From positions 146,711 to 187,131 of the forward strand of contig JALOQK010000003.1 in NCBI GenBank assembly GCA_025453395.1: a DNA stretch of 40,421 nucleotides, written 5' to 3'. A program made the translations under genes and the position numbers. A model generated the notes under the pieces. The model did not search any database. It was not told the origin of the DNA and saw only the letters and a program-made list of their open reading frames with translations. This document shows, piece after piece, positions 20,969-39,700 of this stretch (its first letter is position 1; each line of letters starts with the position of its first letter). This DNA comes from Candidatus Omnitrophota bacterium. GTDB taxonomy: Bacteria > Omnitrophota > Gorgyraeia > Gygaellales > Profunditerraquicolaceae.

Positions 20969-22196
20969 TTTTTAAAGATAAGTATATTTTTTCTATATCA
21001 GAAACGTGATTTTGGATAGAATATTTTTGTGAATCAAGAAAAGCATTTTCGCTCATTTTTTCTTTCAACCGCGGGTTACTGATAAGTTTCTCTATTTTCT
21101 CATGCAGTTGTTCGGTGTCGTCCGGAGGAACCAAGTATCCGTTAAATCCGTCTTTGATTAATTCAGAGATCCCTCCAATCCGGCTTCCGATAACAGGGGT
21201 TCCCGCGGCGGCGCTCTCCAAAACCACATTGCCCAGTATTTCATAATAAATAGACGGCATAACTGTTACATCGCTTTCCTGGTAGCGCTTCTTTAATTCT
21301 ATCCAAGGGATCTTGCCTAAAAAGGCGATCCTTTGGTCGTTTCCTGCTAATGCCCTTAAATCTCTCTCAAAAAATCCTTCTCCCACGATATTTAAGCGGG
21401 CATTTGGCGAAGTAATGTTTCTAAAAGCTTTGATAAGAATGTGCACGCCTTTGATTTTTACCAGCCTGCCGGCGTAAAGAATTCTGAACAGATTATCGTT
21501 TATTTTCTGGTGCGGATTTTCCGGATCAGTGTCTATGCCATTGGGCAGGACCCGGCAGACAGTGTTATTAAAGAATCCGTGATCCCGGTAAAGTTTTAAG
21601 CAAAATTCCGAAGGAGAAATAACCGTGCTTATTGTTTTTTGGATAAGGATTCTGGACAAAGCAATAAACATTCGGCATAAAACAGGAGGGTTTTGGCATA
21701 TTTTTCCGTTACTGCGCAAGAAATCGCAACGCAGGCAAAGATAGCCATAAGAATGCAGGGATTGGACAATAGGGATTTTAGTTGATTTTAGAAGCCGTAA
21801 TAGGAAAAAAGGGGAGAATCCGTGCAGAATATGGTTATGGATGATATCCGGTTTTTCCTTTTGGACAATAAGCCAGGCAAAGATAGCTGGCAGGGGGTTT
21901 ATTAAATCAATGATCCTCCATAACCCCTTAGCAATTAAGCTTTTTTGGTGTGTGCTGTAAATAGAGAAAATGTTTAGAGGGTAAAAAGAATAAACCCGCA
22001 ATCCTTCCTGGATGGTAAGTTTAGGCAACAGAGAAGAAAGCCCCTGATAAGGCCTTTGAGTGATAACGATTACATTATAGCCTTTTTCAAGAAGCCCGCG
22101 GCTTATCCTTTCGGCGCAGGTTTCCGCCCCGCCTATTTTGGCAGGAGCAGTGGTTTTTTCAGGCGTAAAGGCGTTAGTTATAGTGCAGATTTTCAT
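20961..22196 (-). CDS. Glycosyltransferase family 4
   Basis: 411 aa. KIGGAETCAERISRGLLEKGY near the start is the GT4 acceptor-side glycine loop; the donor domain has YAGRLVKIKGVHIL, VGEGFFER and a late E-x7-E region (EILGNVVLESAAAGTPVIGS). The middle holds a Cys cluster (CLRCDF then CQNPPVLC) like the CxxC segment seen in several GT4 proteins. It is the third gene of the minus-strand operon, overlapping the O-antigen ligase-like gene by 4 bp and the nucleotidyltransferase by 8 bp. Sugar and acceptor cannot be read. Confidence 0.9.
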   Translation of the reverse strand: MKICTITNAFTPEKTTAPAKIGGAETCAERISRGLLEKGYNVIVITQRPYQGLSSLLPKLTIQEGLRVYSFYPLNIFSIYSTHQKSLIAKGLWRIIDLINPLPAIFAWLIVQKEKPDIIHNHILHGFSPFFLLRLLKSTKIPIVQSLHSYGYLCLRCDFLRSNGKICQNPPVLCRMFIALSRILIQKTISTVISPSEFCLKLYRDHGFFNNTVCRVLPNGIDTDPENPHQKINDNLFRILYAGRLVKIKGVHILIKAFRNITSPNARLNIVGEGFFERDLRALAGNDQRIAFLGKIPWIELKKRYQESDVTVMPSIYYEILGNVVLESAAAGTPVIGSRIGGISELIKDGFNGYLVPPDDTEQLHEKIEKLISNPRLKEKMSENAFLDSQKYSIQNHVSDIEKIYLSLKNV

Positions 22197-23449
22197 TGTT
22201 CTGTGCGCGGCATGGTATTATTTTGGCAACCTGCAGTTGCGCCGGCAAGCGCCCAAAATAAATAAAACGGCGTCCACCAGAGAAACCCGTCAAAAGTAGC
22301 CATGTTTATAAGAAGCCCTGTAAAGCCCAAAATTAGCGCAAAAAACATATCTTTATTATCGCCTGCCATTTTTTTATAGGATCCGGCTGCCTTTTTAACT
22401 ATGTGTATTAAGAACAAGACAAGACCCGTAAACCCAATTAATCCAGTCTCCGCTAAATGCATAAGATATATACTATCCGGTATCATCACTTCATGCGACA
22501 GCCTAATCTTGCCGCTATATTGGTTAAAAAGCATTCTGTAATGGTTAAGGCCTATTCCCACGAAGGGATGCGCTTTAAGCATATTGGCGGTGATAGAATA
22601 TTGCATTGTCCTGTGGCTGTATCTTAAATAATTAAATAGATGTTCTATCCCAAAGCGCTTTCCTAAGCTTGCATCGGCAAAGGCCGACGTACTTATAATG
22701 GAGAAAATGATAAACCCGCCCCAGATAAGAAGTATCCAACCATGTTTCTTCTTTAGAAAAGCCCAAATTGATAGCATCAGTAAAAAAGCCAAGTATGTCC
22801 CCCGGGAATAGGTTAAGAATAAGGCAGAAAGAACTAATAAAAATAGGCTTAAATTTAACGCCCGCATCCTTAGGGATTGGGCTTTACGATAAAAATAATA
22901 GGCTATAGGAACGCAGGCAACTAAGTAAGAGCCCAGTATATTCGGATGGATCAAAGTTGACATCATCCGGCCTTCTTTTATAAAACGCTGGTAGAAGAAA
23001 TTATCCACAAAATATTCATAGATAAAATTTTTCTTCAAGAGCATTTCAATATGCCCAAACAGTGATATAACTAAACCGCAAAGGCAAAGGCCGTATAAAA
23101 GTTGTCTTATGTTTTTATTATTTATTTCATTTTTATAGAGAAAATATATGGGGATGGCGCTTAGGCTTAAATCCCGGTAGAAATTCCAGGCTAGGGTTTT
23201 ATCTTCGGCAAACCAGATATTTACTGAAATAAGCGCTAAGTATATCCAAAAAAAGAGGTCACTCTTATTAAAGAAATACTCTTTAACATTGAATTTGTGC
23301 CTGTAAATTGAAAGCAATAAAAAAATAAATAAGGCATATTTGACTTGCAGGCTATATTTAGACTGTAAGGGCTGTGGTATAAAAGTCAGCCACGCAATAA
23401 AGGCCAGCAAAAAAACGATAATCAAGCGGTAACTTATGTTTTTAAACAT
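22193..23449 (-). CDS. O-antigen ligase/polymerase-like membrane protein (second of tandem pair)
   Basis: 418 aa with about ten membrane helices and a large outer loop. The AHPFVGIGLNHYRMLF segment, then PDSIYLMHLAETGLIGF, are the conserved Wzy_C/WaaL-type features (H-x(n)-G-x-G-x-N-x-F/Y, then a His-x-ETG). Such proteins join or polymerise undecaprenyl-linked glycans on the periplasmic face. It is similar in plan and ending (FDGFLWWTPFYLFWA) to the adjacent upstream gene, with which it overlaps by 8 bp, so the pair is probably a tandem duplication that diverged. Confidence 0.87.
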   Translation of the reverse strand: MFKNISYRLIIVFLLAFIAWLTFIPQPLQSKYSLQVKYALFIFLLLSIYRHKFNVKEYFFNKSDLFFWIYLALISVNIWFAEDKTLAWNFYRDLSLSAIPIYFLYKNEINNKNIRQLLYGLCLCGLVISLFGHIEMLLKKNFIYEYFVDNFFYQRFIKEGRMMSTLIHPNILGSYLVACVPIAYYFYRKAQSLRMRALNLSLFLLVLSALFLTYSRGTYLAFLLMLSIWAFLKKKHGWILLIWGGFIIFSIISTSAFADASLGKRFGIEHLFNYLRYSHRTMQYSITANMLKAHPFVGIGLNHYRMLFNQYSGKIRLSHEVMIPDSIYLMHLAETGLIGFTGLVLFLIHIVKKAAGSYKKMAGDNKDMFFALILGFTGLLINMATFDGFLWWTPFYLFWALAGATAGCQNNTMPRTEQ

Positions 23450-24716
23450 TTTCTTTAGTTTTCATTAACGAAGCCAGCATCCCGCAATATATCCAAAATA
23501 GATAAAATGGCACAGTCCAGTATAAGGCATCGTAATTGGCCATGCTCAAAAGCATCCCGCAAATTGCTGTTAGCAAAAATAGAGCTATCTCCTTGTTTTC
23601 GTTATTCCCGCCAAATTTTAAAAACTTAAAACCCATCTTTAATAATCTTGCCATAAAAAGGATAAAGGTAAAAAAGCCCAATAACCCAGTTTCGCCTAAG
23701 ATAGAAAGGTACATATTGTCGGGGACCTTCCAATAATATGGAATCTTTTTTGTTGCGATGTAGTATCTGTCAAAGACATATCTAAAATTGCCTATACCTG
23801 CGCCTGTTAAGGGGTAATCCTTCAAGATGCTGGCAGTTGTAATAATCCTATTTATCCTGTGTTTGTAGGGCAGTATATTTGTCAGGCCCGATACCCTAAT
23901 TTTCCAAGAAGGAAACTGTCTTTTCGATAAGAAAGTAAAACAAGCTATCATTAACGCGAAAGCGATAATAATGAAAAAAACTGTATTTCTATTTTTCTTA
24001 TAATAAAAATACAAGATTGAAGTTACGGCACCCGCCAGAAAAATTATCAGAGTAAGCGTTAAAATAACTCCTATTGATATTAAGATAGCGCATAAAATTG
24101 CAAGTATCTTTATATAGCGTTTTTTTTCATTATAAATCAGGGAATATGCCGCCGGGATGCAGGCAATCAGGCATGTGCCTAAAGCCTGAGGCACTATTTG
24201 GGTTGATACGGCTCTGTGCTCTTTAATAAAGAAATTTTGATAAAATCCGTAATAATTTCTTAAATATAGGTTCTCGTAGATAATATTTTTACGAAAAATA
24301 GTTTCAATTATCGCGATAAAAGCCATAATGCTGGCCAAGATGCAGATGGTGATCATAAGCCGGCGCTTATTTTTTACTAATGGGAATCCATTCTTGAACA
24401 AATAATATATAATCGGGATTGGTACCGCATAACGGATATATTGATTTATTGCAATTTGTCTATTTTGGGCGAAGAAAACGCTTGATGTTACCATTAATAT
24501 GTACGCCCATAAAAATGTATCGGTTTTATCTAGGGGAATGGCCCTGCCCATTGCGCGATTAGCAAGAATAATAAAAGATAAGGCCGCAAATAAAGAAATA
24601 ATAATTAGATGCCCGTATTTACTTTGTATCGGCTCAACAAAAAAAGAAAGCCAGAGCGCCACAAGCAGGGCAAGGGCGCAAAACAAAAATTCAGACACTT
24701 TTTGCAGCTTTTTCAT
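23442..24716 (-). CDS. O-antigen ligase/polymerase-like membrane protein (first of tandem pair)
   Basis: 424 aa with about ten membrane helices. YPLTGAGIGNFRYVFDRYY and PDNMYLSILGETGLLGF are the Wzy_C family motifs; the ending ANYDALYWTVPFYLFWI parallels that of the next gene. It is first in the minus-strand operon. TTGCGG, 17 bases and TATAAT lie just upstream, with the -10 six bases from the ATG, so translation may begin on a leaderless message. Ligase versus polymerase cannot be decided from sequence by eye. Confidence 0.87.
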   Translation of the reverse strand: MKKLQKVSEFLFCALALLVALWLSFFVEPIQSKYGHLIIISLFAALSFIILANRAMGRAIPLDKTDTFLWAYILMVTSSVFFAQNRQIAINQYIRYAVPIPIIYYLFKNGFPLVKNKRRLMITICILASIMAFIAIIETIFRKNIIYENLYLRNYYGFYQNFFIKEHRAVSTQIVPQALGTCLIACIPAAYSLIYNEKKRYIKILAILCAILISIGVILTLTLIIFLAGAVTSILYFYYKKNRNTVFFIIIAFALMIACFTFLSKRQFPSWKIRVSGLTNILPYKHRINRIITTASILKDYPLTGAGIGNFRYVFDRYYIATKKIPYYWKVPDNMYLSILGETGLLGFFTFILFMARLLKMGFKFLKFGGNNENKEIALFLLTAICGMLLSMANYDALYWTVPFYLFWIYCGMLASLMKTKENV

Positions 24717-24896: not shown

Positions 24897-25079
24897 ATGA
24901 AAAAAAAGAAATGGGCGAGGCCACAGTTGATTGTAATAACCAGAGGAGATAGGCAGGAAATGGTTCTGCTTAAGTGTAAGACTTTTTCTGGCGGCTCAGG
25001 GACTGGCGCTTTTCATCCGGCGTGTCTGGGGGCTGATAAGGATTGTTGCGCGGGATGCTCGGATGTGATGGACAGCTAA
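24897..25079 (+). CDS. Putative RiPP precursor peptide 1
   Basis: 60 aa, after GGGAGGG. The leader KKWARPQLIVITRG then DRQEMVLLKCK (residues 4-28) aligns without gaps with two other small peptides at 27123 and 28504. The following tail is unrelated to theirs, Gly/Ser-rich, with Cys43, Cys50, Cys51 and Cys54, and ends in Ser60. Conserved leader plus variable Cys-bearing core is what a RiPP precursor looks like. It is the first gene of the operon and is separated by 89 bases from a radical SAM/SPASM gene. Thioether (Cys-alpha-carbon or Cys-beta-carbon) crosslinks are the likely type of product, by analogy with SPASM maturases of Cys-rich peptides; this is inference. Confidence 0.82.
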   Translation: MKKKKWARPQLIVITRGDRQEMVLLKCKTFSGGSGTGAFHPACLGADKDCCAGCSDVMDS

Positions 25080-25168
25080 CCTTAACCCTTGCCCCCTTGG
25101 ATTTTTGATAAATAAGTAGGGAATAGATACTTTCCAATCCAGTCCTTTCTAAGAAGAGATTTTTATAG

Positions 25169-27133
25169 ATGTTAAAAGATTACTCAACATTAAAGAAAGT
25201 AAGAAATTTACCCCGCCTGCCATTAGAAGGCAATATTGATTTTACTTACCGCTGCAATAATAATTGCCGGCATTGCTGGTTGCGTATACCTGCTGATGCA
25301 GCAGAGAAAAAAGAAGAACTCACCTTTACTGAAATAAGAAAGATTGTTGATGAAGCAAGAAAGTTAGGTTGCCGCAAGTGGTTTATTTCCGGAGGCGAAC
25401 CCATGCTTAGGCCGGATTTTGCGGAAATATTTGATTATCTTACCCGCGGCTCTGTTTCGTATTCCCTTAATACAAATGGTGCTTTAATCACTCCGGTTAT
25501 CGCAGGGCTTATGAAACGTAAAGGCTCTAAGATGGTGGCTTTGTATGGAGCCACTGCTAAAGTCCACGACTATATTACCCGTAATCCCGGATCCTTCGAG
25601 GCAACCATACGCGGATTTTATTATCTAAAGGAAGCTGGCACAGGTTTTACAGTCCAACTAATTCCAATGAAGGATAATTATCATCAGCTTCAGGAAATGA
25701 TAAAATTAGCTGAATCTTTGAGCAAGCACTGGAGAATCGGATCGGCATGGCTTTTTTTATCTGCCTGCGGCAGCGTGGAAAGAAACAAGGAAATAATACG
25801 CCAGAGGCTTGCGCCAAAAGAGGTAATTGAGCTGGATAAGCCGGATTTATCGTATGAAGAATCAAGCAGGGATTTACCTGTTCAAAATTGCAGCGCTGGA
25901 AACAAAAAATACCTGCTTTCCTCTTGCATAAAAACAAGGAATGATTTTCATATTGACCCTTACGGTAAAATGACCTTTTGTTCTTTTATTAAAGATCCTG
26001 CCTTGCGTTATGATTTAAGAAAAGGGAGTTTTCAAGAAGGCTGGGATAATTTTATCCCCTCTTTAGCTAACAAAATCAAGATTACCAAAGAATATAAAGA
26101 GCATTGCGGTTCCTGCGCGCTGCGTAAACACTGCCGCATTTGCCCGGTATATGCTTATTTAGAGCATCGCAAGTTTTCTGCCAAAATAGACTATCTCTGT
26201 GCCGTGGCAAAAGAAAATAATAAATTTAAAGAAAATTGGCAAGAAAAACACAGACGATATTATAAGATTGCCGGCATAACCATTCAGGTAGAATCTGATT
26301 TACCGATGGAAGAAAATACCTTTCATCCTAAATTTAAACATTTCGAAGTTGCCGGGCCCGGAGAAGATACTGTCCGCATAAGACATCATTTTTCTCTGCC
26401 GGATTTAGAGGGAAAAGATTTGGGAAAAGAATTATACCGCAAGCCGCCGTGGGCAATTTATAAAAATAATGGTTCTTGGATATATTTAGGTATTTCCCCG
26501 ATACTGGAAGATAAGCAGTTGCATCGGACGGTGGTTTTTAATTCTACTCACACTCGTGCCAGAATTTATAATGATAAGGAAGATGTCTTTCGCAAAGGTA
26601 ACTTGTATTCGCTAACACTGTTTCCTACTGACCAGATTCTCTTAGCCCGGCTTTTGGCAGATAGACAGGGTTGTTTCTTGCATTCCTGCGGAGTCAATCT
26701 TGACGGAAGGGGGCTGCTTTTTGCCGGTCATTCTAGCGCGGGAAAATCTACAATGGCTCAGATGTTAAAAGGAAAAGCCGAAATACTTTGTGATGATCGG
26801 ATTATAGTCAGAAAGCAAAAGTCGGAATTTAAAATCTATGGAACCTGGAGCCATGGAGATGTGCCTGATATCTCTAATGCTTCGACTGCTCTACAAGCAA
26901 TAATGTTTCTTGAGAAATTTGAGGATAATCAGCTTATTCTTATTAATAATAAGATGGAAATAGTTAAAAGATTATTGAGTTGTCTTATTAAGCCATTCCT
27001 TACTGTTGACTGGTGGGAGAAAACTCTTCCTTTAATTGAGAATATTGCTCAGAAAGTACCCTGCTATATATTGAGGTTTAATAAAAACGGTAAAGTTGTA
27101 GAGCTTTTAAGAGGAGGGCTGTATGGCCGATAA
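25169..27133 (+). CDS. Radical SAM/SPASM peptide maturase fused to HPr-kinase-like domain
   Basis: 654 aa. Residues 1-360 are radical SAM/SPASM: YRCNNNCRHCW with C29, C33, C36, ISGGEP for SAM, and a SPASM part with CSF, then CGSC, CRICP and YLC cysteines. Residues about 370-654 resemble HPr kinase/phosphorylase: LFAGHSSAGKST (about 518-529) is the P-loop, and CDDR (near 545) the acidic motif. The first part should crosslink the precursor; the second may phosphorylate a Ser on it, as HprK homologues do in paeninodin-type lasso peptide loci. Precursor 1 is just upstream, and precursor 2 starts within its last codons. No frame break is seen at the domain junction. Confidence 0.87.
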   Translation: MLKDYSTLKKVRNLPRLPLEGNIDFTYRCNNNCRHCWLRIPADAAEKKEELTFTEIRKIVDEARKLGCRKWFISGGEPMLRPDFAEIFDYLTRGSVSYSLNTNGALITPVIAGLMKRKGSKMVALYGATAKVHDYITRNPGSFEATIRGFYYLKEAGTGFTVQLIPMKDNYHQLQEMIKLAESLSKHWRIGSAWLFLSACGSVERNKEIIRQRLAPKEVIELDKPDLSYEESSRDLPVQNCSAGNKKYLLSSCIKTRNDFHIDPYGKMTFCSFIKDPALRYDLRKGSFQEGWDNFIPSLANKIKITKEYKEHCGSCALRKHCRICPVYAYLEHRKFSAKIDYLCAVAKENNKFKENWQEKHRRYYKIAGITIQVESDLPMEENTFHPKFKHFEVAGPGEDTVRIRHHFSLPDLEGKDLGKELYRKPPWAIYKNNGSWIYLGISPILEDKQLHRTVVFNSTHTRARIYNDKEDVFRKGNLYSLTLFPTDQILLARLLADRQGCFLHSCGVNLDGRGLLFAGHSSAGKSTMAQMLKGKAEILCDDRIIVRKQKSEFKIYGTWSHGDVPDISNASTALQAIMFLEKFEDNQLILINNKMEIVKRLLSCLIKPFLTVDWWEKTLPLIENIAQKVPCYILRFNKNGKVVELLRGGLYGR

Positions 27134-27296
27134 GAAAAAGAAATGGGCTGTTCCTCAGTTGATTGTTTTAACTAGGGGCAGAGCAGAAGAAAGGGTATTG
27201 TTAGTTTGTAAAAATCCGCCTAGCTCTTATGGAATGGCGGATGGTTCATGTAAAAAAGGAGGTGTTTATTTCTGTTCTGAAGATGGCTCCTCTTAG
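27123..27296 (+). CDS. Putative RiPP precursor peptide 2
   Basis: 57 aa, with GAGGAGGG (27111-27118) before ATG 27123; it overlaps the end of the maturase gene by 11 bases. Leader KKWAVPQLIVLTRG then RAEERVLLVCK (residues 6-30) matches precursors 1 and 3 at the same spacing. The tail has Cys43 and Cys51 among Gly, Ser, Lys and Tyr, and ends in Ser-Ser. Only two tail Cys, versus four in the other two peptides, suggests a smaller number of crosslinks. A second radical SAM gene begins seven bases after its stop. Confidence 0.82.
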   Translation: MADKKKKWAVPQLIVLTRGRAEERVLLVCKNPPSSYGMADGSCKKGGVYFCSEDGSS

Positions 27297-27303
27297 TTCA
27301 ATT

Positions 27304-28500
27304 ATGCAATACAGAAGTGCTTCTTTATCCCGCGGCTCTTATGTTGTAAGAAAAGATTTGAAGCAGGCTCATATTTGGCATAAATCAAAACTATTTTTAT
27401 ATCAGCTGGATATCGAATTGACAGAGCGTTGCAATAATAATTGCGTCCATTGCTGTATAAATCTGCCCGCCGGTGATTTAGAGGCAAAGAACAAAGAGCT
27501 TTCTACCGAAGAAGTCAAGAATATCCTTAAAGAAGCAGTTTCGCTGGGATGTTTGAGCGCAAGGTTTACCGGAGGCGAGCCGCTTTTAAGGGAAGATTTT
27601 GAAGAGTTGTATATTTTTGCGCGAAAACTGGGCTTAAAAGTCTTACTTTTTACAAACGCTACTTTAATTAACCAGCGTTTGGCGGATTTATTTTCGCGCA
27701 TTCCTCCGCTAGAGAGAATTGAGGTTACGCTTTATGGGATGAAAAAGCAATCTTATGAGGCAGTAACGCGCGTTCTAGGCTCATTTGAAGCGGCATGGCG
27801 CGGGATCCGCTTATTATTAGAGAAAAAAATACCTTTTATGGTCAAAGGCGCGCTCTTGCCGTATAATAAAGGCGAAATAGATGAATTTGAAGCTTGGGCA
27901 GCGAAAATTCCTTGGATGGATAGGCCGCCGTCATATTCTATGTTTTTTGATTTGCGCTGCCGGCGTGATGGCATGAAGAATAAATTAATAAAAAATCTAA
28001 GAGTAAGCCCCGAAGCCGGGTTAAAAATTCTTAACCGTAGAAAAGGTAAATACATAAAAGAAATGAAAGAGTTTTGCGCAAAATTTATCCGGCCTCCCGC
28101 AGATAAACTTTTTTCTTGCGGTTCTGGTAAAGGCGGAGGCTGCGTGGATGCTTACGGAAATTTTCAGCCCTGCATGTTATTAAGGCACCCGGATTACGTT
28201 TATGATTTAAGGAAGGGCTCTTTGAAAGATGCATTAGAGAATTTCTTCCCCAAGTTAAGGGAAATAAAAGCAACCAATTCTGATTATTTAAATCGCTGTG
28301 CGAAATGTTTTTTAAAAGGTTTGTGTGAACAATGTCCGGCAAAATCCTGGGCTGAGCATGGCACGCTGGATACGCCAGTGGAATATCTTTGCGAAGTTGC
28401 CCACGCGCAGGCTGAATTTTTAGGGTTGATAAAAGAAAATGAGAAAGCTTGGGAAGTTGCTGACTGGCAAGAGAGGATTGATAGATTTAGCGGGAGGTAA
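27304..28500 (+). CDS. Radical SAM/SPASM peptide maturase 2
   Basis: 398 aa from ATG 27304, the first start after the precursor 2 stop; an in-frame ATG at 27283 would overlap the precursor, and the frame is open back to 27229, so the start is uncertain. ERCNNNCVHCC gives C43, C47, C50; FTGGEP follows. The C-terminal SPASM part has CGSGKGGGC, CMLL, then CAKCFLKGLCEQCPA and YLCE cysteines. It is a paralogue of the maturases at 25169 and 30149 (same RCNNNC-x-HC and same Cys order). It probably matures precursor 2 or 3, which flank it closely on both sides. Confidence 0.88.
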   Translation: MQYRSASLSRGSYVVRKDLKQAHIWHKSKLFLYQLDIELTERCNNNCVHCCINLPAGDLEAKNKELSTEEVKNILKEAVSLGCLSARFTGGEPLLREDFEELYIFARKLGLKVLLFTNATLINQRLADLFSRIPPLERIEVTLYGMKKQSYEAVTRVLGSFEAAWRGIRLLLEKKIPFMVKGALLPYNKGEIDEFEAWAAKIPWMDRPPSYSMFFDLRCRRDGMKNKLIKNLRVSPEAGLKILNRRKGKYIKEMKEFCAKFIRPPADKLFSCGSGKGGGCVDAYGNFQPCMLLRHPDYVYDLRKGSLKDALENFFPKLREIKATNSDYLNRCAKCFLKGLCEQCPAKSWAEHGTLDTPVEYLCEVAHAQAEFLGLIKENEKAWEVADWQERIDRFSGR

Positions 28501-28503
28501 AAA

Positions 28504-28677
28504 ATGAAGCAAAAGAAATGGGCGAAGCCGAAGTTGACAGTATTAGTCAGAGGTTGTAATAATGAAAAGGTATTATTTGTCTGTAAGGTAGGTGGTGCAG
28601 GCCCAGATATTGGCCAGTGTGGATGCGAGACAAATGCTTCTGGTTGTCCGAAATGCAGCTTAAATATTGGCTCTTAA
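28504..28677 (+). CDS. Putative RiPP precursor peptide 3
   Basis: 57 aa, three bases after the maturase stop, with GGGAGG (28491-28496) upstream. Leader KKWAKPKLTVLVRG then CNNEKVLFVCK (residues 4-28) aligns with the other two precursors with no gaps. The tail carries Cys39, Cys41, Cys48 and Cys51 and ends GS. An additional Cys18 sits inside the leader. Two small hairpins (28679-28694 and 28700-28717) follow the stop before the PqqD-like gene; they could stabilise the upstream message so that precursor is made in excess. Confidence 0.82.
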   Translation: MKQKKWAKPKLTVLVRGCNNEKVLFVCKVGGAGPDIGQCGCETNASGCPKCSLNIGS

Positions 28678-28678
28678 T

Positions 28679-28717
28679 CAATCCTTAGGGATTGTGTGGT
28701 AATTCTAGCTCGAATTA
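28679..28717 (+). promoter_or_regulatory. Twin hairpins between precursor 3 and pqqD-like gene
   Basis: CAATCC-TTAG-GGATTG (28679-28694) and TAATTC-TAGCTC-GAATTA (28700-28717). Short stems without T-runs; possible processing or stability elements between a highly needed peptide and downstream enzyme genes. GGAGG of the next gene follows. Confidence 0.35.
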
Positions 28718-28730
28718 ACAGGAGGAAATA

Positions 28731-29033
28731 ATGAAAATAAGCGTAAGCTTTGATAAAAGCTACAAACCATCCGAAGATGTGGTGGCGCGCCAGGTGCAGG
28801 GAGAATTCATAATTATCCCCATAACCAGCGGAGTAGGGGATGAAGAAGACGCAATATTTACGCTCAATGAGACCGGAAAGGCTGTCTGGGATAAATTAGA
28901 CGGTAAAAAGACCTTAAAAAGCATAATAAATGAACTTGTTAAAGAATTTGATGCCCCTCTTGAAGAAATAGAAAAAGATATTTTAGGAATAACGAGTGAG
29001 TTGTTAAAGAAAAAAATGTTGGTTGAGGCTTAA
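28731..29033 (+). CDS. PqqD-like RiPP recognition protein
   Basis: 100 aa, with ACAGGAGG upstream. Early beta strands (KPSEDVVARQVQGEFIIIPI), then FTLNETGKAVWDKLDGKKTL and two helices ending in ELLKKKMLVEA, are the PqqD fold: N-terminal strands and a winged helix. PqqD-like domains (RiPP recognition elements) hold the leader peptide and present it to the radical SAM enzyme. As one free-standing copy in a locus with three precursors, it probably serves all of them through their common leader. It sits directly after precursor 3. Confidence 0.92.
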   Translation: MKISVSFDKSYKPSEDVVARQVQGEFIIIPITSGVGDEEDAIFTLNETGKAVWDKLDGKKTLKSIINELVKEFDAPLEEIEKDILGITSELLKKKMLVEA

Positions 29034-29037
29034 TGAA

Positions 29038-30144
29038 GTGGCTTGTAAAAACTTTTGCTACCAGGAATTCTGCGCACAGATTTATCAATATGCTCCTGTT
29101 TGCGACGATATAGATAAGAAAAATATCATTTCTTCGTCTTCCTATCCAAATAATCCGTGGGAAACTGGTTTAGTTCTACAAATGTTTGAATTAGGCAGAT
29201 TATTTGTAGAAAAGAAGATGGTTAAATTTTCTCCTGAAGGGGCCTGCATGTATCCTTGCATTCGGCCGAAAGATATTTTACACATTGAGCCCAAAAGCGT
29301 AAGCGAAATTAGAGTTGGAGATATCGCGGTTTACCGTAAGGCAGGCCGATTATTTGCTCATCGCACGATTGCCAAAGGAAATAACGAGGGCCAAGATTAT
29401 ATTATTACCCGTCCGGATACCGCTTATTCCGGAAATGACGGAGCCAGTTTTGAACAGGATATTTTAGGAATAGTTAGCCGCATTCAAAGGCGAGGGGAAA
29501 CTTTAAATACTGTAAAAAAAGATTACCCTTTTGTAAAACGGTTTTTCTTTAATCTTTACCTTAAGCATTATTACTTTAAGCAATATCTGTGGCGTAAAAT
29601 AATTGATTTTATCAGTTATATACAACAGTATAAAGCTTACCGCTGGTTTGCCAGGTTTTTATTCATAAAGTCAAGCAAAGAAGTCCAATTTTCTTTGCAG
29701 GCGCCCATTAGCCCTAAAGCAAACAGCAAATTTTATAAGGAATTCTCTAAAACGGAACTTTTGGAATCTTTAAGCGGAGAGTTTCCTGTTTCGAAGTGGA
29801 CGATTGCGTTAGAGATAAATTCAAAGCCGGCAGGTTATTTATCATTTGTTTTTAAACCTAAAGATTGCCCGTTTTCCGGCTGGTGGCTTTATGAATATAA
29901 GTTAAGGCTTAGATACAGAAGGACTAACTTAGAAGAAAAGCTTTTGCGAGAAGCGGATGATTTGTTTAAGCAGGCTGGCGCAACAGGGATATCCGTAAGC
30001 GTTCTTAAAGGCATGAATTTAGAGAAAAAGATTTTAAAGAACTTGGGGTTTAGAGAAATATCAACGCAAAAAGAAGTTTTCTTTAAAAATAAAGAGCCTG
30101 TTGAGCGCCTGATAATGAAAAAAGAAATTGGATCAAAGATTTAA
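29038..30144 (+). CDS. S26 signal-peptidase-like domain fused to GNAT-like domain
   Basis: 368 aa from GTG 29038 (TGAGG nine bases upstream); the frame is open back to TTG 29023. EGACMYPCIRPKDIL (from residue 67) corresponds to the G-x-SM-x-P nucleophile motif of S24/S26 peptidases, but with Cys70 where Ser is usual. VGDIAVYRKAGRLFAHRTI supplies the GDI strand and a His (108) like the ER/archaeal type, and ITRPDTAYSGND the later acidic motif. Residues about 230-360 look like a GNAT acetyltransferase (YEYKLRLRYRRTNLEEKLL, then KNLGFRE). A role in leader removal or peptide acylation is possible. The first 50 residues contain four Cys and are unrecognised. Confidence 0.72.
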   Translation: MACKNFCYQEFCAQIYQYAPVCDDIDKKNIISSSSYPNNPWETGLVLQMFELGRLFVEKKMVKFSPEGACMYPCIRPKDILHIEPKSVSEIRVGDIAVYRKAGRLFAHRTIAKGNNEGQDYIITRPDTAYSGNDGASFEQDILGIVSRIQRRGETLNTVKKDYPFVKRFFFNLYLKHYYFKQYLWRKIIDFISYIQQYKAYRWFARFLFIKSSKEVQFSLQAPISPKANSKFYKEFSKTELLESLSGEFPVSKWTIALEINSKPAGYLSFVFKPKDCPFSGWWLYEYKLRLRYRRTNLEEKLLREADDLFKQAGATGISVSVLKGMNLEKKILKNLGFREISTQKEVFFKNKEPVERLIMKKEIGSKI

Positions 30145-30148
30145 TTCT

Positions 30149-31276
30149 ATGAAAGATAAATTTATTTCCAAAATTCCTTTGCCTAAATTTAAGCTTTGGG
30201 ATAAGTTTAAGGACGCAGATAGAAAACTGGTTTCTTTTGATCTGGAAATCACTGCCCGCTGTAACAACAATTGCAGGCATTGCTATGTAAATTTATCTTG
30301 TCAAGACAGCAAGGCAAAATCGCGCGAACTTACCCTTGTACAAATAAAACATATAATTGACCAAGCCGCGGATTTAGGTGCCCTTTGGTGCCTTATTACC
30401 GGAGGAGAGCCTTTTTTAAGAAAAGATTTCTTTGATATTTATTTGTACATAAAGAAAAAAGGGCTTTTGGTCTCGGTTTTTACCAATGCCACTTTAATCA
30501 ATGAGAAGCATATAGATTTCTTCAAGAAATATCCTCCCAGAGATATTGAGGTTACTGTTTATGGGGTTACTAAAGAGGTGTATGAGCGCGTTACTAGGAT
30601 CCCGGGGTCTTTTAAAGCTTTTAGGCGGGGGCTGGATTCTTTATTGAAAAATAAAATACCAGTGCGGCTTAAGGCCATGGCGCTTCGTTCAAATGTTAAA
30701 CAGCTGCCGCAAATCGCGCGATTCTGCCGCCAGAAAACCAAAGATTATTTTCGTTTTGATCCGTTATTGCATCTTCGTTTCGACAGGAATCAAAAAAGGA
30801 ACGAAGAAATTAAATCTGAACGCTTGTTACCAGCAGAAATCGTAGCAATTGAGAAAGCGGACTCCGAGCGCTCGCAGGCATTACAAAAAAGCTGCGATAA
30901 ATTTATTATCCCGGAATTATCCCATACCGGATGCAACCATCTTTTTCACTGCGGAAGCGGCAATGGGAGTTTTTATGTCAGTTTTGACGGGTATTTTAAA
31001 TTATGCTCTTCACTTAATCATCCCGATTGTATGTATGACTTAAAAAAAGGATCTTTGGAGCAGGCTTACAATAAATTCGCGCTTAAAGTGCGGGATATGC
31101 GTTCAAATAACCCGGAGTTTCTTGAGAAATGCCGTAAGTGTGAACTTGTCAATCTTTGTCTCTGGTGCCCGGCGCATGCTTATCTTGAAACCGGCAAACT
31201 GGATACGCCGGTTGAGTATTTCTGCGAGGTAGCCCACCAGCGCGCAGAGCCATTATTAAATAACAGATTAAAGTGA
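30149..31276 (+). CDS. Radical SAM/SPASM peptide maturase 3
   Basis: 375 aa from ATG 30149, just after the S26/GNAT stop. ARCNNNCRHCY gives C38, C42, C45; ITGGEP follows. The SPASM end (CGSGNGS, CSSL, CRKCELVNLCLWCPA, EYFCE) mirrors maturase 2 closely, including the HPD-x-x-YDL-x-KGSL segment. No precursor gene lies right beside it, so it may act on one of the three upstream peptides, perhaps as a second step. The following GT2 gene starts within or a few bases after its stop. Confidence 0.88.
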   Translation: MKDKFISKIPLPKFKLWDKFKDADRKLVSFDLEITARCNNNCRHCYVNLSCQDSKAKSRELTLVQIKHIIDQAADLGALWCLITGGEPFLRKDFFDIYLYIKKKGLLVSVFTNATLINEKHIDFFKKYPPRDIEVTVYGVTKEVYERVTRIPGSFKAFRRGLDSLLKNKIPVRLKAMALRSNVKQLPQIARFCRQKTKDYFRFDPLLHLRFDRNQKRNEEIKSERLLPAEIVAIEKADSERSQALQKSCDKFIIPELSHTGCNHLFHCGSGNGSFYVSFDGYFKLCSSLNHPDCMYDLKKGSLEQAYNKFALKVRDMRSNNPEFLEKCRKCELVNLCLWCPAHAYLETGKLDTPVEYFCEVAHQRAEPLLNNRLK

Positions 31277-31284
31277 GTATAAAT

Positions 31285-32280
31285 ATGGCGTATGTTTCAG
31301 TGATTATTCCCAGTTATAACAGCCAGGAAACAATAGAACAGTGTCTTGTGTCGGTGAGGCAGTCTACATACAAAGATTATGAGCTTATTGTTGTTGATGA
31401 TGCAAGCTCTGATGATAGCTGTCCAATCGCCTCAAAATATGCGGATATGGTTATGCGGCTTACCGAACATTTAGGAAGAAGCCAGGCGCGTAATCGCGGG
31501 ATAATGGCTTCGGCGGGCCAGATAATCGTTAACATAGACTCGGATGTCGTTATAAGGCCAGATACCATTGCGCGGATCGCGGATTATTTTATTAAACATC
31601 CTGATGTTTCTGCCGTGAACGGGCTTCTTTCAAAAGAACATCCTCACCCTGGGTTTTTCAGCCAGTATAAGAATCTCTATATGCATTATATATTCAACAA
31701 GCTGCCTGAAAAAGTAACTTTTTTGTATGGTTCAATACATGCTTTTCGGCGCGAAGATGCCTTGCTATATGGTTGTGACGATATGACAGCTGACGATACT
31801 GCTTTGGGGCAAAAGCTTTTGGCTTGGGGCAAACAAATTGGTTTTATAAAGACCCTGGAAGTCGTCCATCTAAAAAGATATAACTGGTTTTCATTTATTA
31901 AAAATGACTTTCAAATTCCTTTTGATTGGGGCAAGATTTTCCTTAAATATCAAGGCTGGAAGCAGCTAGGCAGGAACAAAACAGGCTTTGCTCATTCGCC
32001 AAAGGAACAGCTGATAAGCACGTTGTTAGCCCCCGTAATTATTCTATCAGGCATCTTAAGCCTATCGGGGAATTTAAATTATTTAGTTGTATTATTTTTA
32101 ACTGTGGGGTGGCTCCTTCTTAACGTTAATTTTCTCGCGTTTCTTATTAAAGAAAGAGGATTTCTTTTTGGAGTTCTTGCATTTTTTGTTACTTTCCTTG
32201 ATAATATAGTAATGGCTTGTGGCATTGTCTGCGGGTTTACCGCTTTCTTGCTGCGCAAAAAAATATGCAAAAATCAATAA
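31285..32280 (+). CDS. Membrane-bound glycosyltransferase family 2
   Basis: 331 aa from ATG 31285; GTG 31273 overlapping the previous stop is an alternative. VSVIIPSYNSQETIEQCL, VVDDASSDDS and NIDSDVV (the DxD-like motif) define a GT-A family 2 enzyme; TADDTALGQKL follows. Three or four membrane helices occupy residues 240-325. It lies inside the peptide operon between a maturase and an HprK-like gene, so it may glycosylate the peptide or a lipid-linked sugar used for it; a role in surface glycan is the alternative. Confidence 0.87.
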   Translation: MAYVSVIIPSYNSQETIEQCLVSVRQSTYKDYELIVVDDASSDDSCPIASKYADMVMRLTEHLGRSQARNRGIMASAGQIIVNIDSDVVIRPDTIARIADYFIKHPDVSAVNGLLSKEHPHPGFFSQYKNLYMHYIFNKLPEKVTFLYGSIHAFRREDALLYGCDDMTADDTALGQKLLAWGKQIGFIKTLEVVHLKRYNWFSFIKNDFQIPFDWGKIFLKYQGWKQLGRNKTGFAHSPKEQLISTLLAPVIILSGILSLSGNLNYLVVLFLTVGWLLLNVNFLAFLIKERGFLFGVLAFFVTFLDNIVMACGIVCGFTAFLLRKKICKNQ

Positions 32281-32294
32281 CCGGGGCAGGGTTA

Positions 32295-33344
32295 ATGCGT
32301 TTCGGATTAGACTTACCGGACACAATTCAGTTTTATAGTGCCAAGTTCTCTTTTTATGGATTTGTAATCCAGGTCAAGTGCCAGGATATGCAGACCCTGC
32401 AGAAGATTCAAAGAGACTATTCATTCTTCTTAAATCAAGAAGCATTCCCTGAGGTATTTTTTGAGGTTTTTAACTATGCCCCTGATTACAGCAAGCTTCC
32501 TTGCGTTACGGCGCATCTATACACTCCCCGCAATATCTGTTACAAACAAGAAGGAGTTTCTTTTCTTGATTATTTCGGCAAGGGGTTAATGATTATTAAT
32601 CAGGATAGAGATGTTTATCAGGTTTTTTGCGCGGATGAACATTTAAGGCACGAGATCGTTTTTTTGTCTATTATGTCGCTTGTGGGAGAGAACCTTGATT
32701 CAAGAAATATTCATCGGGTGCACGGCTTAGGCCTTGCGGTAAATAATCAGGGTGTTTTGATCCTTTTGCCAAGCGGTGGCGGAAAAACTACTTTTTTATT
32801 GGATATTATTAAGAATCAATCCGTTAGGCTTTTATCAGAAGATTCCCCGCTTATAGACGCATCCGGCAGGATGTTGGCGTTTCCTCTTAGGATCGGTGTT
32901 TCGCATGAAAATAAGCCTCGCGATATCCCTGAAGGGCAAATGCATCTTATCAATAGAATGGAGTTTGGGTCAAAGTATGTGATAGATGTGGATTTTTTCA
33001 AAGATAAAATCGCCAAGGAGCCGGTTGTCCTGCGGCATATTCTTTGCGGGGTAAGATGTTTAGGCAATCAGTCCGGGATCAAGAAGATATCCAAATATTA
33101 TGCGTTTAAGCAGTTGGTGCAGAATTCAGTAGTCGGATTGGGCCTGTACCAGGGTGTTGAGTTTTTGTTTCAGAGGGGGCTCTGGGAGGCGCTTAAGAAA
33201 AGCGGCGTTATTCTTTCACGGCTTAAAAATAGCTGTAAAATCCTCTCTCAAGCCAGCTCCTATTCGTTTATCATCGGGCCTGATCGCAGCAAGAACGTGA
33301 AGGAATTCATGGATTTTTGCAGGGCCCATGCGGAACGCGTATAA
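32295..33344 (+). CDS. HPr-kinase-like P-loop protein
   Basis: 349 aa from ATG 32295 (GCAGGG upstream, after the GT2 stop); ATG 32265 is an alternative that overlaps the GT2 gene. LLPSGGGKTTF (about 157-167) is the P-loop, LLSEDSPLI the acidic metal/catalytic segment. The N-terminal 150 residues, with HRVHGLGLAVNN just before the kinase core, match HprK-related proteins found next to PqqD-like genes. True HPr kinase phosphorylates HPr-Ser46, but no HPr is in view. In peptide loci such proteins phosphorylate a C-terminal Ser. It is last in the operon and is followed by a palindromic terminator-like sequence. Confidence 0.8.
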   Translation: MRFGLDLPDTIQFYSAKFSFYGFVIQVKCQDMQTLQKIQRDYSFFLNQEAFPEVFFEVFNYAPDYSKLPCVTAHLYTPRNICYKQEGVSFLDYFGKGLMIINQDRDVYQVFCADEHLRHEIVFLSIMSLVGENLDSRNIHRVHGLGLAVNNQGVLILLPSGGGKTTFLLDIIKNQSVRLLSEDSPLIDASGRMLAFPLRIGVSHENKPRDIPEGQMHLINRMEFGSKYVIDVDFFKDKIAKEPVVLRHILCGVRCLGNQSGIKKISKYYAFKQLVQNSVVGLGLYQGVEFLFQRGLWEALKKSGVILSRLKNSCKILSQASSYSFIIGPDRSKNVKEFMDFCRAHAERV

Positions 33345-35413: not shown

Positions 35414-36796
35414 TTACTTATCAAAAATTTCTTTGGTAATTACTCTGGCTATATTTTCTGCTAAAAGCTGGTTACCTTTAGCAGTGCAGTGTCCGAAATC
35501 GCCTCCGAACATATCCCTAAAATAGGCCTGGTAATTTTCCTTATCCACAGCGTTTTTAAACACGGCTTCATTATCAACAAATATAATTCCCTCCGGATTG
35601 GGGAATATCTGTTTGAGCGGCAATACGCTACGCATAGGATACTGCACGCAGACTAGGCGCGTACCCTGTTCTTTCAAGATCTGCCACAGCCTATGGTAAT
35701 TATTGATTGTTTCAGCTGCGTAATAAGCTTTTACGGCCTTTGCTGTAAGGAAATCGCTCAAATAATAATTACCTTGAGCGCGGTAAAGCGAAGAAAGCGC
35801 TCCATAAATCTTCGCTGTCCTTATATTAAATTGAATTGCTTTTTGCAAAAGTTTTTCCGCCTTTTCATATTCATTTTGTTTCAGGTAGATTGGATAAAGT
35901 TCAAGATATGGTCTATCATTATAGGGGTCGAGCTCATTGGCCTTTTTAAAAAATTCTTCAGCCAAGGCATATTCGCCAAGGCATTGTTTGACAAGGCCCA
36001 TCCAGAAATATGCATCATAATTGGATGGGTTTACTTTTATTGCTTCCTCAAATGCTTGGTTCATATCAGTAAAACGCTGCTGGTAATAATAAAGCCAGAT
36101 CAGATATCCGTAAGCCCTGCCTCTAGGGTTCAAAACGATTGCTTTCTTTAACTCTATTTCTGCTTCGGCGCGTTTTCCAAGGGAATTATATAGGTGTCCA
36201 AGATTAGCGCATTGTTCTGAGAGCTCCAAAGAATTATTTACAGGGTAAGAATTATTTGTAGAATTCGAAGAATATTTTTTATCAGCGGTTTGTATTTCTT
36301 GTAAAATTCGATTGATATTTAGCCAAAGATAAACCCCTGCTTTATATATCCTCAAGGAAGTCAAAAATGGTTTTTTAACCGAAGTATTTAATAGTTCCAC
36401 GGGGATATAAGCTATTTGGCCATTGTCCATCCTGTCATTAATCCCCATCATTGCGATTACCATATCCGGTCTATACTGTTTTATATTTTGCTCAACATTT
36501 AAAAGTAAATGCGATGTGCCAATTCCGGGTAACCCACAATCTACCACGCTAAATTTAATGCCGAATTTATTTTGGTTTAGTATTCTTTCAAGAAAAGAAG
36601 GATATTCTCCCGCTGTTGTTGATTCTCCGATGCACATGATACGATAAGCACCAGTGTTCTTTATAGAACAGTAATTCCTATATTTTTGAATACTGATAAA
36701 CACAAAGCCAGCTGTTCGTAAGCCCGCTTCGATTAATGCTGTCGACAGTACAAGCCCCAGTATTATTAAGGAGATTTTCTCTAAAACAGGCTTCAT
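35414..36796 (-). CDS. SGNH/GDSL-like hydrolase with TPR insertion, membrane-anchored
   Basis: 460 aa from ATG 36796, which overlaps the stop of the fusion gene (ATGA). One N-terminal membrane helix (about 7-27) precedes an SGNH domain: block I CIGESTTAGEY (Ser nucleophile in GES rather than GDS), block III MMGINDRM, and block V GDFGHCTAKGN near the C-terminus with the Asp-His pair. Between blocks III and V lie about five TPR-like 34-residue repeats (residues about 195-370; e.g. YNSLGKRAEAEIELKKAI, MGLVKQCLGEYALAEEFF). It is likely periplasmic and may O-acetylate or deacetylate surface glycan; the TPRs would bind a partner. Confidence 0.82.
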   Translation of the reverse strand: MKPVLEKISLIILGLVLSTALIEAGLRTAGFVFISIQKYRNYCSIKNTGAYRIMCIGESTTAGEYPSFLERILNQNKFGIKFSVVDCGLPGIGTSHLLLNVEQNIKQYRPDMVIAMMGINDRMDNGQIAYIPVELLNTSVKKPFLTSLRIYKAGVYLWLNINRILQEIQTADKKYSSNSTNNSYPVNNSLELSEQCANLGHLYNSLGKRAEAEIELKKAIVLNPRGRAYGYLIWLYYYQQRFTDMNQAFEEAIKVNPSNYDAYFWMGLVKQCLGEYALAEEFFKKANELDPYNDRPYLELYPIYLKQNEYEKAEKLLQKAIQFNIRTAKIYGALSSLYRAQGNYYLSDFLTAKAVKAYYAAETINNYHRLWQILKEQGTRLVCVQYPMRSVLPLKQIFPNPEGIIFVDNEAVFKNAVDKENYQAYFRDMFGGDFGHCTAKGNQLLAENIARVITKEIFDK

Positions 36797-39700
36797 CTTA
36801 CGATATTTTCCTCCAAATATATGAATTCGATACTGCATTTGCAAAAATCTAATGTGCAGGGCATAGCTTTATCAAGACATCCAAATTCTTTATCTTTGAC
36901 GTTGCCAATTCTAGTTTCGTCACTAGCGCATCTAAAAATTGAGCCATCAGGAGAAACTCGGAAATATGCCATACCCGCTCTGCATAATTTACCTCTAGGG
37001 CTTATATTATTTAAATAATAATCATTAGAGTGATCTTTAATTAACAAAGAAATTAAATCTTTTTCGGCAGTGGTGTATTCCTTGGGGTATGTTCGGGATT
37101 GATATTCTCCCATAAATGGAAGGATGCATACACCAGTGCCTATCTCAAGAAATCTTTTCTGGAAATAAGCTAACTTATCTAATAGTGGAGGATAAGCCAC
37201 TATTATTGGCTCAATAACCCATCCGTTATCTATTAAAGCGCGCATTTTCTTAAGATATTCATCTAAATCTGCGCAATGAGGATGGAAAGATGGATGTAAT
37301 GCTAATCTCTGGGGGGAGAAGATGTTAACGACCTTTCTTATATCAAATGATAAATTAGTGCATATCTCCACGCGGTGCCATAAAGTAATTTTTTTCATTA
37401 ATTCAAAGAAGGCAGGGTAGACAGTTGGTTCCCCTCCGGCAATAACTATTTTAATCTCACCGTATTTCTGATACATTCTTCTCCAGAAGCTTACCCATTC
37501 CTGGAAACTAACTATTAGCTTTCCAGATAAGTCATAGGCAGGGTCACTGTAACTATTGTTAAGACAATAGGGGCATTTATAATTACATTTAAAGGGGAAG
37601 TCCCAGCCCGCAGCTAATCCTGCTGAAGGGATATTAATATTTTCATCAATTGGTTCTTCTTCAGGTTCCATGGTTGATAACATTAGCCTTCTGCGCAACA
37701 ATTCTTCTTGTTCAAAAGTTTTATTCACATCGTAATAATCTTTAATTACCTTTTTGGCATTGCTTGCCATTGTGTTCCTTTTAGTTTTATCCTGTAAAAG
37801 ATCCAAAACCTTATTTGCGAAGTCTTCTCTTGATGAGGCGATATAGAGATCTTTCCCGTTAACAGCTTTTAACCCACTAGCCGCTTCTTCTGTAGCGACA
37901 ACCGGGACTCCCGCAGCCATGGCTTCAAGTATTTTGACTTTTATCCCAGAGCCTAAACGGATAGGTACTACCAAAATTTTTGCCCTTGCGAGATATTCTT
38001 TCACATCCCCAACCTCTCCTGTTACAGAAATATTCTCATTGTCTTTAATGCCGAATTCTTCTTTTCTTAGGCCTGAGCCTATTATATTGAATTTAAATTT
38101 GGGGTTATTTTCCTTAATAAGCGGGAGTATCTTCTTAATAAAATATCGCAACCCATCGATATTGGGATAATGCAACATGTGTCCGATAAATAAAATATCG
38201 ATGTCCCTGGGGCAATCAGAATGTGGTTTGTAATTATCAACATCAATGCTTATTGGGATTATGTTGATTTTATCAGCAGATGTAGCTTTTTGGATAATCC
38301 TCGCGTCTTCATCCGTAAAGGCAATAATCTTATCAAAATAGCGGTAAATATTTTTCTGGAATCTTTTAAAATTCATCCAGTCAAGAAACCGGAAGATCTT
38401 CCCAAAGGCCGGTTTTTCACATGATTTATTCAAGGTATAAATACTGGCATCGTGTTCTACCAATATTTTTGGAATGCCAGAGATGGACTGGGCATAATAT
38501 GCCATATTGGCATATTCAACCTGGACTAAATCTATAGGATGAGCTTGCAGGCAATTCTTAATTGTCTCTTCCATTTCCTTAGAATAAAAATATTTTACAA
38601 ATATAGGCAGGGAAATCTTATCAAAACGGCTCTTCCAGGTAGGATCACAAACAACCGTATGAACCTGTTTACATAGTTTATTTAATTCCGGCAGGTATTG
38701 TTTTTCTTCAAGATGCCTTATGAAAGAAATTAAAATAATATCATATTTTTCAGAAAGTTTATTAAGCGAGGTAAACATCTTGACCTGGCCGCCAGACTTT
38801 ACCGGGAGCGGGAGGAAAGGGGTAATTAACAAAAGGGTTTTGTTGCTTTGCGGGTTATTGGTTAAAAGCTTATTCTTGATGTTGATAGAGTAATTAAAAA
38901 ACTCAAGCGGCTTAGACAATACTTCTTTATCATTGCGTAAGATATGCTGTTCTTCTTTCATCCGATGAGCGATAGTTAATGGCAGCCAGTTTAATGCCAT
39001 CAAGTATCCCCTTAAGAACTGTTTTCGTTCCATCTTTCTTCTTAAGAAATACAAGGGCAAGAATAAGAAATGCTGCATTGTCATATTAAAATCGGTGATA
39101 TTCTTCCAGGTAAACAATAGCTCATTCTTTATCTCAATCGAACGTTTGAATGGCCCGATTGTCCCGTGGACTTTATGGAAGACTGTGCTTTTAGGCTCAT
39201 AAACAACGCGCAGGTTTCTTTTTAATGCCCTGTAGGATAGATCTATATCCTCCCAGCAGTATGGTTTAAAGATTTCATCAAGCCCTCCCAATGCCAAGAA
39301 ATCACTTTTTCTGAAGCAAACCGCACATCCGATACCAAATACTGTTGGTTGAGCAGTATTTATCACGGGATATCCATGAATGTCGCGTTCGTTCCAAATG
39401 TGAATATACCCATGTTGAAAATCTCCTACATACATGCCGGTGGCAAATGTTTTTCTGTCCCATTCGTACAGCCGAGGCGAAACCGAAAAGATGTCTTCAT
39501 TATCAAGATGCGCTATCAGGGGTTTATGAAAATCATCAGAAACAATAATGTCGTTATTAAGCAAAATTATTATTTTATTTCTTGCTTGTTTTATTCCTAG
39601 GTTGCAACTTGCTCCAAAGCCAAGATTTTTCTTATTGCAGATTAAAGTAACTTGCGGAAAATTTTCCCTAACAAAAGCTACGCTATCGTCAGAACTGGCA

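Follow-up and report, generated by a model that had tools for sequence, protein, structure and literature searches.

A candidate peptide cassette uniting radical SAM enzymes and an HPr-kinase-like domain in Omnitrophota and other uncultured bacteria

The stretch of DNA analyzed here (40,421 nucleotides of contig JALOQK010000003.1 from a Candidatus Omnitrophota bacterium, hereafter the window) carries three small genes whose products share a leader and which are interleaved with genes for radical S-adenosylmethionine (SAM) enzymes (rSAM). This locus is likely a cassette for ribosomally synthesized and post-translationally modified peptides (RiPPs) of an apparently undescribed family, in which a RiPP recognition element (RRE) would guide the radical SAM modification of cysteines, an HPr-kinase-like (HPrK) domain would phosphorylate the C-terminus, and the leader would be removed and the product exported. 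The parts, their conservation, co-occurrence and fusions were read from the sequence; each chemical step, the order of the steps and the function of the product are what we infer.

Precursors, enzymes and leader recognition

All three precursors are encoded on the forward strand. Precursor A1 (24897-25079, 60 aa) consists of the KKKKWARPQLIVITRGDRQEMVLLKCK leader and a core with four cysteines ending in CSDVMDS. Precursor A2 (27123-27296, 57 aa) overlaps the 3' end of the first radical SAM gene, starts with two additional residues ahead of the shared block (MADKKKKWA) and has a two-cysteine core ending in CSEDGSS, and precursor A3 (28504-28677, 57 aa) has a four-cysteine core ending in CSLNIGS. 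The leaders follow KKKWxxPxLIVLxRGxxEExVLxxCK. The initial annotation had described the three genes and their common block as we find them, and had overlooked that all three C-termini read C-x5-S. Since the host genome (1.62 Mb, 14 contigs) contains such a precursor set at this one locus only, and the leader block was matched in other genomes with E values down to 1e-17, the similarity is far beyond chance. No NCBIfam or Pfam model fitted the precursors. Chance open reading frames or simple paralogy were ruled out by the co-occurrence and conservation across phyla described below. Having three precursors is not the defining trait, as other genomes carry from one to seven.

The gene between A1 and A2 (25169-27133, forward strand) encodes a fusion of 654 aa, rSAM1::HPrK, with an N-terminal radical SAM domain (PF04055, E 6e-20), a Cys-rich SPASM-like region and, in its C-terminal half (about 300 aa), an HPrK-like domain (Hpr_kinase_C in Pfam, E 3e-4) containing a Walker A motif, GHSSAGKST (26726-26752, forward strand), and a catalytic-type LCDDR downstream at about 26786-26800. 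On the same strand lies rSAM2, a radical SAM/SPASM gene (27304-28500; PF04055, E 5e-21) whose frame is open from 27229, with the ATG at 27304 as the likelier start, and whose orthologues in cassettes are 50-74% identical. Further downstream are the gene for the PqqD-like RRE (28731-29033; PF05402, E 1e-14), a gene for an archaeal-type S26 signal-peptidase-like protein with a GNAT-like C-terminal part (29023-30144, start codon uncertain; TIGR02228, E 1.2e-7, under the cut-off), the sole gene of its type in the genome, and rSAM3 (30149-31276; PF04055, E 7e-23; SPASM, E 3e-3), with a frame open from 30128, an ATG at 30149 and orthologues in other cassettes. The three radical SAM genes all retain CxxxCxxC and Cys-rich C-termini. 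About 4 kb upstream, on the reverse strand, the sole PF14907 gene of the genome encodes an NTP_transf_5 nucleotidyltransferase (19964-20968; E 9e-47), which is a probable late tailoring enzyme; in other genomes, members of this family lie next to the cassette. The Pfam matches bear out the three radical SAM/SPASM genes and one PqqD-like gene originally recognized among the precursors. The interpretation as a radical SAM RiPP locus stands in outline; it was incomplete, the kinase half of the fusion, the S26-like gene and the nucleotidyltransferase gene having been overlooked.

In the proposed pathway, the PqqD-like protein would bind W-x-x-P-x-L of the common leader and present the precursor to the maturases. 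Up to three radical SAM/SPASM enzymes would then modify core cysteines, likeliest by forming one or more thioether or C-C crosslinks, and the HPrK-like domain of the rSAM1 fusion would phosphorylate the near-invariant C-terminal Ser/Thr. The PF14907 nucleotidyltransferase may add a group onto that phosphate, the signal-peptidase-like protein would cut off the leader, and an MsbA-like exporter would secrete the product.

Genome G017 bears on leader recognition. Of its five dispersed precursor genes, two are complete (L070:186-845 and L071:9500-10165) and encode PqqD, a charged linker, the leader and the core in one single protein, while the remaining three are truncated within the PqqD or linker part, where their contigs stop. 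The position of these further fusion copies at contig ends suggests that the assembly broke at the repeated PqqD part. In an AlphaFold model of one fusion, confidence (pLDDT) was about 90 for the leader and about 60 for the linker, LIVL formed a strand, and the top PDB matches were lasso B1-leader peptide complexes (probability 1.0, TM by target 0.79-0.84). The leader is thereby predicted to dock on the sheet of the PqqD-like RRE. The co-occurrence in two phyla, the PqqD::precursor fusions and the predicted fold strongly support the earlier idea of a shared leader with a PqqD-type recognition element. The conserved leader, variable core, adjoining SPASM maturase(s) and RRE are also those of a radical SAM/SPASM RiPP with an RRE.

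Distribution of the leader and a one-rSAM sister family

Two samples were analyzed, one of 285 genomes from the same phylum and a second, independent one of 199 genomes from another phylum. The leader was strongly matched in 11 of the 285 genomes, and orthologues of the kinase half of the fusion (at least 53% identity) were found in eight genomes, all within these 11 (P = 2e-13). In the second phylum, 10 genomes carry the leader and nine the fusion, counting one genome with the kinase half only; all nine are among the 10 (P = 9e-15), the tenth being G488. Of the three other leader genomes of the first sample, G036 and G262 have rSAM3, or both rSAM2 and rSAM3, on contigs truncated in the assembly, and the third is G225.

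When 84,980 species genomes were scanned with a single short leader pattern, derived from a six-row alignment, 34 loci matched; the genome-wide leader scan using the window's three leaders alone as the query gave no matches. Leader loci are distributed over about eight phylum-level groups: Omnitrophota, Aminicenantes/Acidobacteria, Deltaproteobacteria, Anaeromyxobacter, KSB1, Calditrichaeota, Chloroflexi and Actinomycetota (including Thermoleophilia). A weak archaeal match (L102) is probably due to chance. Cassette order is conserved across these groups, from Omnitrophota to Actinomycetota, and is usually precursor, rSAM1::HPrK, rSAM2, PqqD, S26-like, rSAM3, precursor. At most loci, HPrK and rSAM1 form one fusion protein. 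Cassettes elsewhere often include, in addition, an MsbA-like ABC exporter, found at 11 related loci, and a PF14907 nucleotidyltransferase. Precursors were also found far from maturases, amid housekeeping genes. The initial annotation would have been refuted by a leader occurring regularly away from radical SAM genes. Locally this does occur, because precursors are often dispersed; at the genome level it does not, nearly all of these genomes encoding maturases at other sites, with G225 as the clear exception. The leader-bearing open reading frame of G225 (L052) may be decayed or transferred, or its genome may have missing data.

Precursors of the Aminicenantes/Acidobacteria (L085, L087, L092-L100) have a near-invariant core (TAPPVAPYNHKDNCTSNP.CCQAC...YAS), in contrast to the hypervariable cores elsewhere. 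After the deltaproteobacterial cassettes L077, L080 and L084 come genes for a DUF5838 protein and an FAD oxidoreductase, placed between precursors.

A sister family with one radical SAM gene is common in the phylum of the window, with the order PqqD, rSAM, precursor, HPrK, S26/GNAT and NTP transferase; in one such cassette, the S26-like, GNAT and PF14907 nucleotidyltransferase parts form a triple fusion (L118:3892-5973). Its precursors have a YxxP leader homologous to the leader family of the window (profile comparison, probability 95%, E 2e-8). The first search for them preselected Ser/Thr ends; when repeated without that condition, 11 of the 12 precursors found ended in Ser or Thr, with 0.75 chance matches per pass. 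The sister leader is present in 33 of the 285 genomes, of which 31 fall within the 56 genomes with an HPrK match (P = 9e-24). The remaining pair, G207 and G253, each encode a single divergent HPrK, and one HPrK-PqqD-rSAM cluster was found in each of them (L200, L201). A first look gave 67 precursor candidates in G207 and 103 in G253, of which 23 were scored in each and all matched. In the stretches read, the sister precursors of G253 and G207 (L185-L191, L196, L197) lie in groups scattered over these 1.4-1.8 Mb genomes, and nearly all end in PS or SS.

Core cysteines, the C-terminal residue and the leader peptidase

Cysteine makes up 11% of core residues and its spacing is strongly fixed. SPASM maturases of Cys-rich peptides usually form thioethers, and the core cysteines are most likely crosslinked through thioether or C-C bonds. 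Tentatively, the same cassette could instead contain radical SAM enzymes that epimerise, decarboxylate, methylate or alter other residues, the cysteines forming disulfides or serving as metal ligands. The closest NCBIfam profiles of the maturases are indeed mixed (heme b synthase AhbD, mycofactocin, ScmF and StsB), all far under cut-offs, and a CxxC close to the C-terminus might be a metal-binding site; the abundance and fixed spacing of the cysteines argue for crosslinking, as does their lower number in genomes lacking rSAM1. In four deltaproteobacterial genomes with the kinase domain, no rSAM1 was detected anywhere in the genome, and all seven of their precursors have two-Cys cores, versus nine of 54 elsewhere (Fisher p 3e-5, uncorrected for kinship). 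By eye, the absent cysteine is the middle one of the usual C..CxxC; because it is missing where rSAM1 is missing, rSAM1 may act at this position. A rule of one cysteine per radical SAM enzyme fits the rSAM1-less genomes, but was rejected, the one-rSAM sister family keeping two core cysteines.

The other constant feature of the precursors is their last residue. Among 64 complete precursors, 61 end in Ser (54) or Thr (7), and the three others have damaged leaders or cores. The last cysteine lies at position -7 in 42 of these 61, versus about 4 expected by shuffling, and held-out precursors agree (Ser/Thr end in 11/11, Cys at -7 in 8/11). On the enzyme side, all 25 HPrK domains from cassettes keep the P-loop, and the 24 in which LCDDR was read keep that motif too. 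The predicted fold of the kinase half (pLDDT 91) was matched by Foldseek to phosphoenolpyruvate (PEP) carboxykinase and HPrK, with a probability of 1.0. Lasso precursors are phosphorylated on their C-terminal Ser by HPrK homologues, and the phosphorylated peptide of pseudomycoidin receives a hexose through a nucleotidyltransferase (PMC8498205). The functions of the kinase and of the leader peptidase of linear polyphosphorylated peptides (LPPs) were shown via gene deletion (PMC13381572). Given these precedents in lasso and LPP pathways, and since the cassette holds the LPP core set, phosphorylation of the C-terminal Ser/Thr is, by analogy, most likely the role of the HPrK domain. A regulatory, structural or nucleotide-sensing domain, with the C-terminal Ser/Thr used for export or another attachment, is an unlikely reading: it would suit the weak sequence similarity to characterised HPrK and the match to the PEP carboxykinase fold, but not the conserved P-loop and LCDDR, the frequent fusion to a maturase, the near-invariant last residue and the experimental kinase precedent.

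Most S26-like proteins of the cassettes retain a Ser-His pair, and a GNAT-tailed subtype has Cys for Ser. According to the alignment, this subtype includes the protein of the window (29023-30144; Cys at the nucleophile position in GACMYP, His retained), L073:9406-10434 and L075:10698-11654. Because the Ser- and Cys-type subtypes coexist as separate genes in L073 and L075, the protein of the window may be a Cys peptidase or no peptidase at all.

Relation to known peptide systems

LPPs, described in 2026 in Bacillota, have a core set comprising an RRE, an HprK-like kinase, the signal-peptidase-like LppS, an NTP transferase and an MsbA-like exporter (PMC13381572). The window contains four of these five parts, with the exporter found at the 11 related loci. 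Common to both systems are a discrete RRE, the HprK-like kinase, an archaeal-type signal peptidase, the NTP transferase, the MsbA-like exporter, a [Y/W]xxP leader, variable cores and a polysaccharide setting. In contrast, LPPs are linear products of Bacillota without reported radical SAM genes or a ring-forming enzyme, and their leader, YxxPxVLxHQxIxFETxxS, is another than that of the window with its three rSAM genes.

Paeninodin-type lasso peptides (PMC8498205) also have a WxxP leader, a discrete RRE, an HPrK homologue for the C-terminal Ser and, in some cases, a nucleotidyltransferase; the window likewise has an HPrK homologue and C-terminal Ser/Thr. It differs in that its cores are rich in Cys and a trio of radical SAM enzymes takes the place of the lasso cyclase, and neither an asparagine-synthetase-like cyclase nor a transglutaminase-like B2 protease was found among the Pfam-scanned genes (18.8-40.3 kb). 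The initial annotation considered lasso signatures absent, which is correct for the cyclase and B2 protease and incorrect for the kinase, NTP transferase, WxxP leader and RRE, which form the paeninodin tailoring set.

SynChlorMet (NCBIfam TIGR04248-TIGR04251) resembles the cassette in its two SPASM enzymes, PqqD-like ScmD and HPrK-like ScmC, with weak profile matches. Membership was rejected on scores of 29 bits versus a cut-off of 100 for ScmD, 66-101 versus 400 for ScmE/F and 38 versus 125 for ScmC (L077 homologue). No mention of SynChlorMet was found in the literature searched, and it is not known to have a precursor. GeoRSP membership was also rejected on curated cut-offs. Sactipeptides and ranthipeptides share the Cys-containing core, SPASM maturases and leader recognition; here, up to three maturases come with a kinase and an NTP transferase, and the crosslink is a predicted one. 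Curated models of StsB, AlbA and PapB gave the maturases of the window 43-82 bits, versus cut-offs of 340-850. No description combining these parts was found in the literature covered, which excludes most subscription journals and bioRxiv preprints.

PQQ signatures were rightly called absent: PqqD scored 41.3 bits against a cut-off of 46 and PqqE 61-67 against 381, and PQQ membership was rejected. PqqD and SPASM enzymes nevertheless recall PQQ and mycofactocin, and the core is near-invariant across Aminicenantes. That the product is a comparable cofactor or intracellular redox peptide is quite improbable, given several unrelated cores per genome, dozens of precursors in sister-family genomes, and the presence in many cassettes of genes for an exporter and a signal-peptidase-like protein. 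Because of the exporter, the peptidase and the polysaccharide setting, our best guess is a secreted or surface peptide.

Two O-antigen-ligase-like (Wzy_C) genes (22193-24716, reverse strand) flank the cassette, their membership being uncertain; a related gene adjoins the NTP transferase in L036. A glycosyltransferase 2 gene (31273) and a second, divergent HPrK-like gene (32217), together spanning 31273-33344 on the forward strand, are lacking in other cassettes; they were therefore set aside as cassette parts and are probably accessory. A frame of 1153 aa (36793-40254, reverse strand) combines glycosyltransferase 2, GT4-type glycosyltransferase and radical SAM domains. It is doubtful that the modified peptide serves as a tether, with a phosphorylated C-terminus that the NTP transferase and neighbouring ligases couple to a surface polysaccharide. 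Glycosyltransferases and two Wzy_C genes do lie nearby, LPP and paeninodin clusters also occur in capsule loci (PMC13381572, PMC8498205), and the phosphate of pseudomycoidin carries a sugar (PMC8498205); yet polysaccharide genes are not conserved in cassettes of other phyla, and many precursors lie beside housekeeping genes.

Several points weigh against an RRE-guided cassette for radical SAM modification, C-terminal phosphorylation, leader removal and export. The part of the window that was examined showed no exporter, leader removal in the window may differ, the peptidase having Cys for the usual Ser, and leader-bearing G225 has no detected rSAM2 orthologue or kinase. No maturase reaches any curated NCBIfam cut-off, radical chemistry is not readable from sequence, and the correlation between two-Cys cores and missing rSAM1 rests on related genomes. 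The HPrK domains fall under the Pfam gathering threshold, and a sequence profile searched against the PDB left HPrK and ABC P-loops unseparated; the kinase fold was predicted and searched for this reason, and the fold search alone separates them. Finally, the LPP phosphate is on core S3, near the N-terminus of the core, versus the C-terminus proposed here.

The cassette would combine the radical SAM and HPrK-tailored kinds of RiPP, and there is a fair chance that it deserves a class of its own. We lean slightly towards a broader proposal, that uncultured bacteria have a new RiPP superfamily. Its peptides would be RRE-guided, their cysteines would be modified by a set of one, two or three radical SAM enzymes, and their obligatory C-terminal Ser/Thr would receive a phosphate, perhaps as a glycosyl phosphate, from an HPrK that is often fused to the first of these enzymes. 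Its dispersed precursors would be modified in trans, numbering dozens in some genomes and carrying their own PqqD domain in others. The literature searched contains no report that joins radical SAM modification of the core to C-terminal phosphorylation of the HPrK type. The rSAM::kinase fusion, the PqqD::precursor fusion and the near-invariant last residue are testable handles, and natural one-, two- and three-rSAM systems let enzymes be matched to cysteines. The tailoring set of kinase, RRE, signal peptidase and NTP transferase would extend past Bacillota and past lasso and linear peptides, and uncultured small-genome phyla would be home to a large peptide family, apparently undescribed and identifiable by its short leader.

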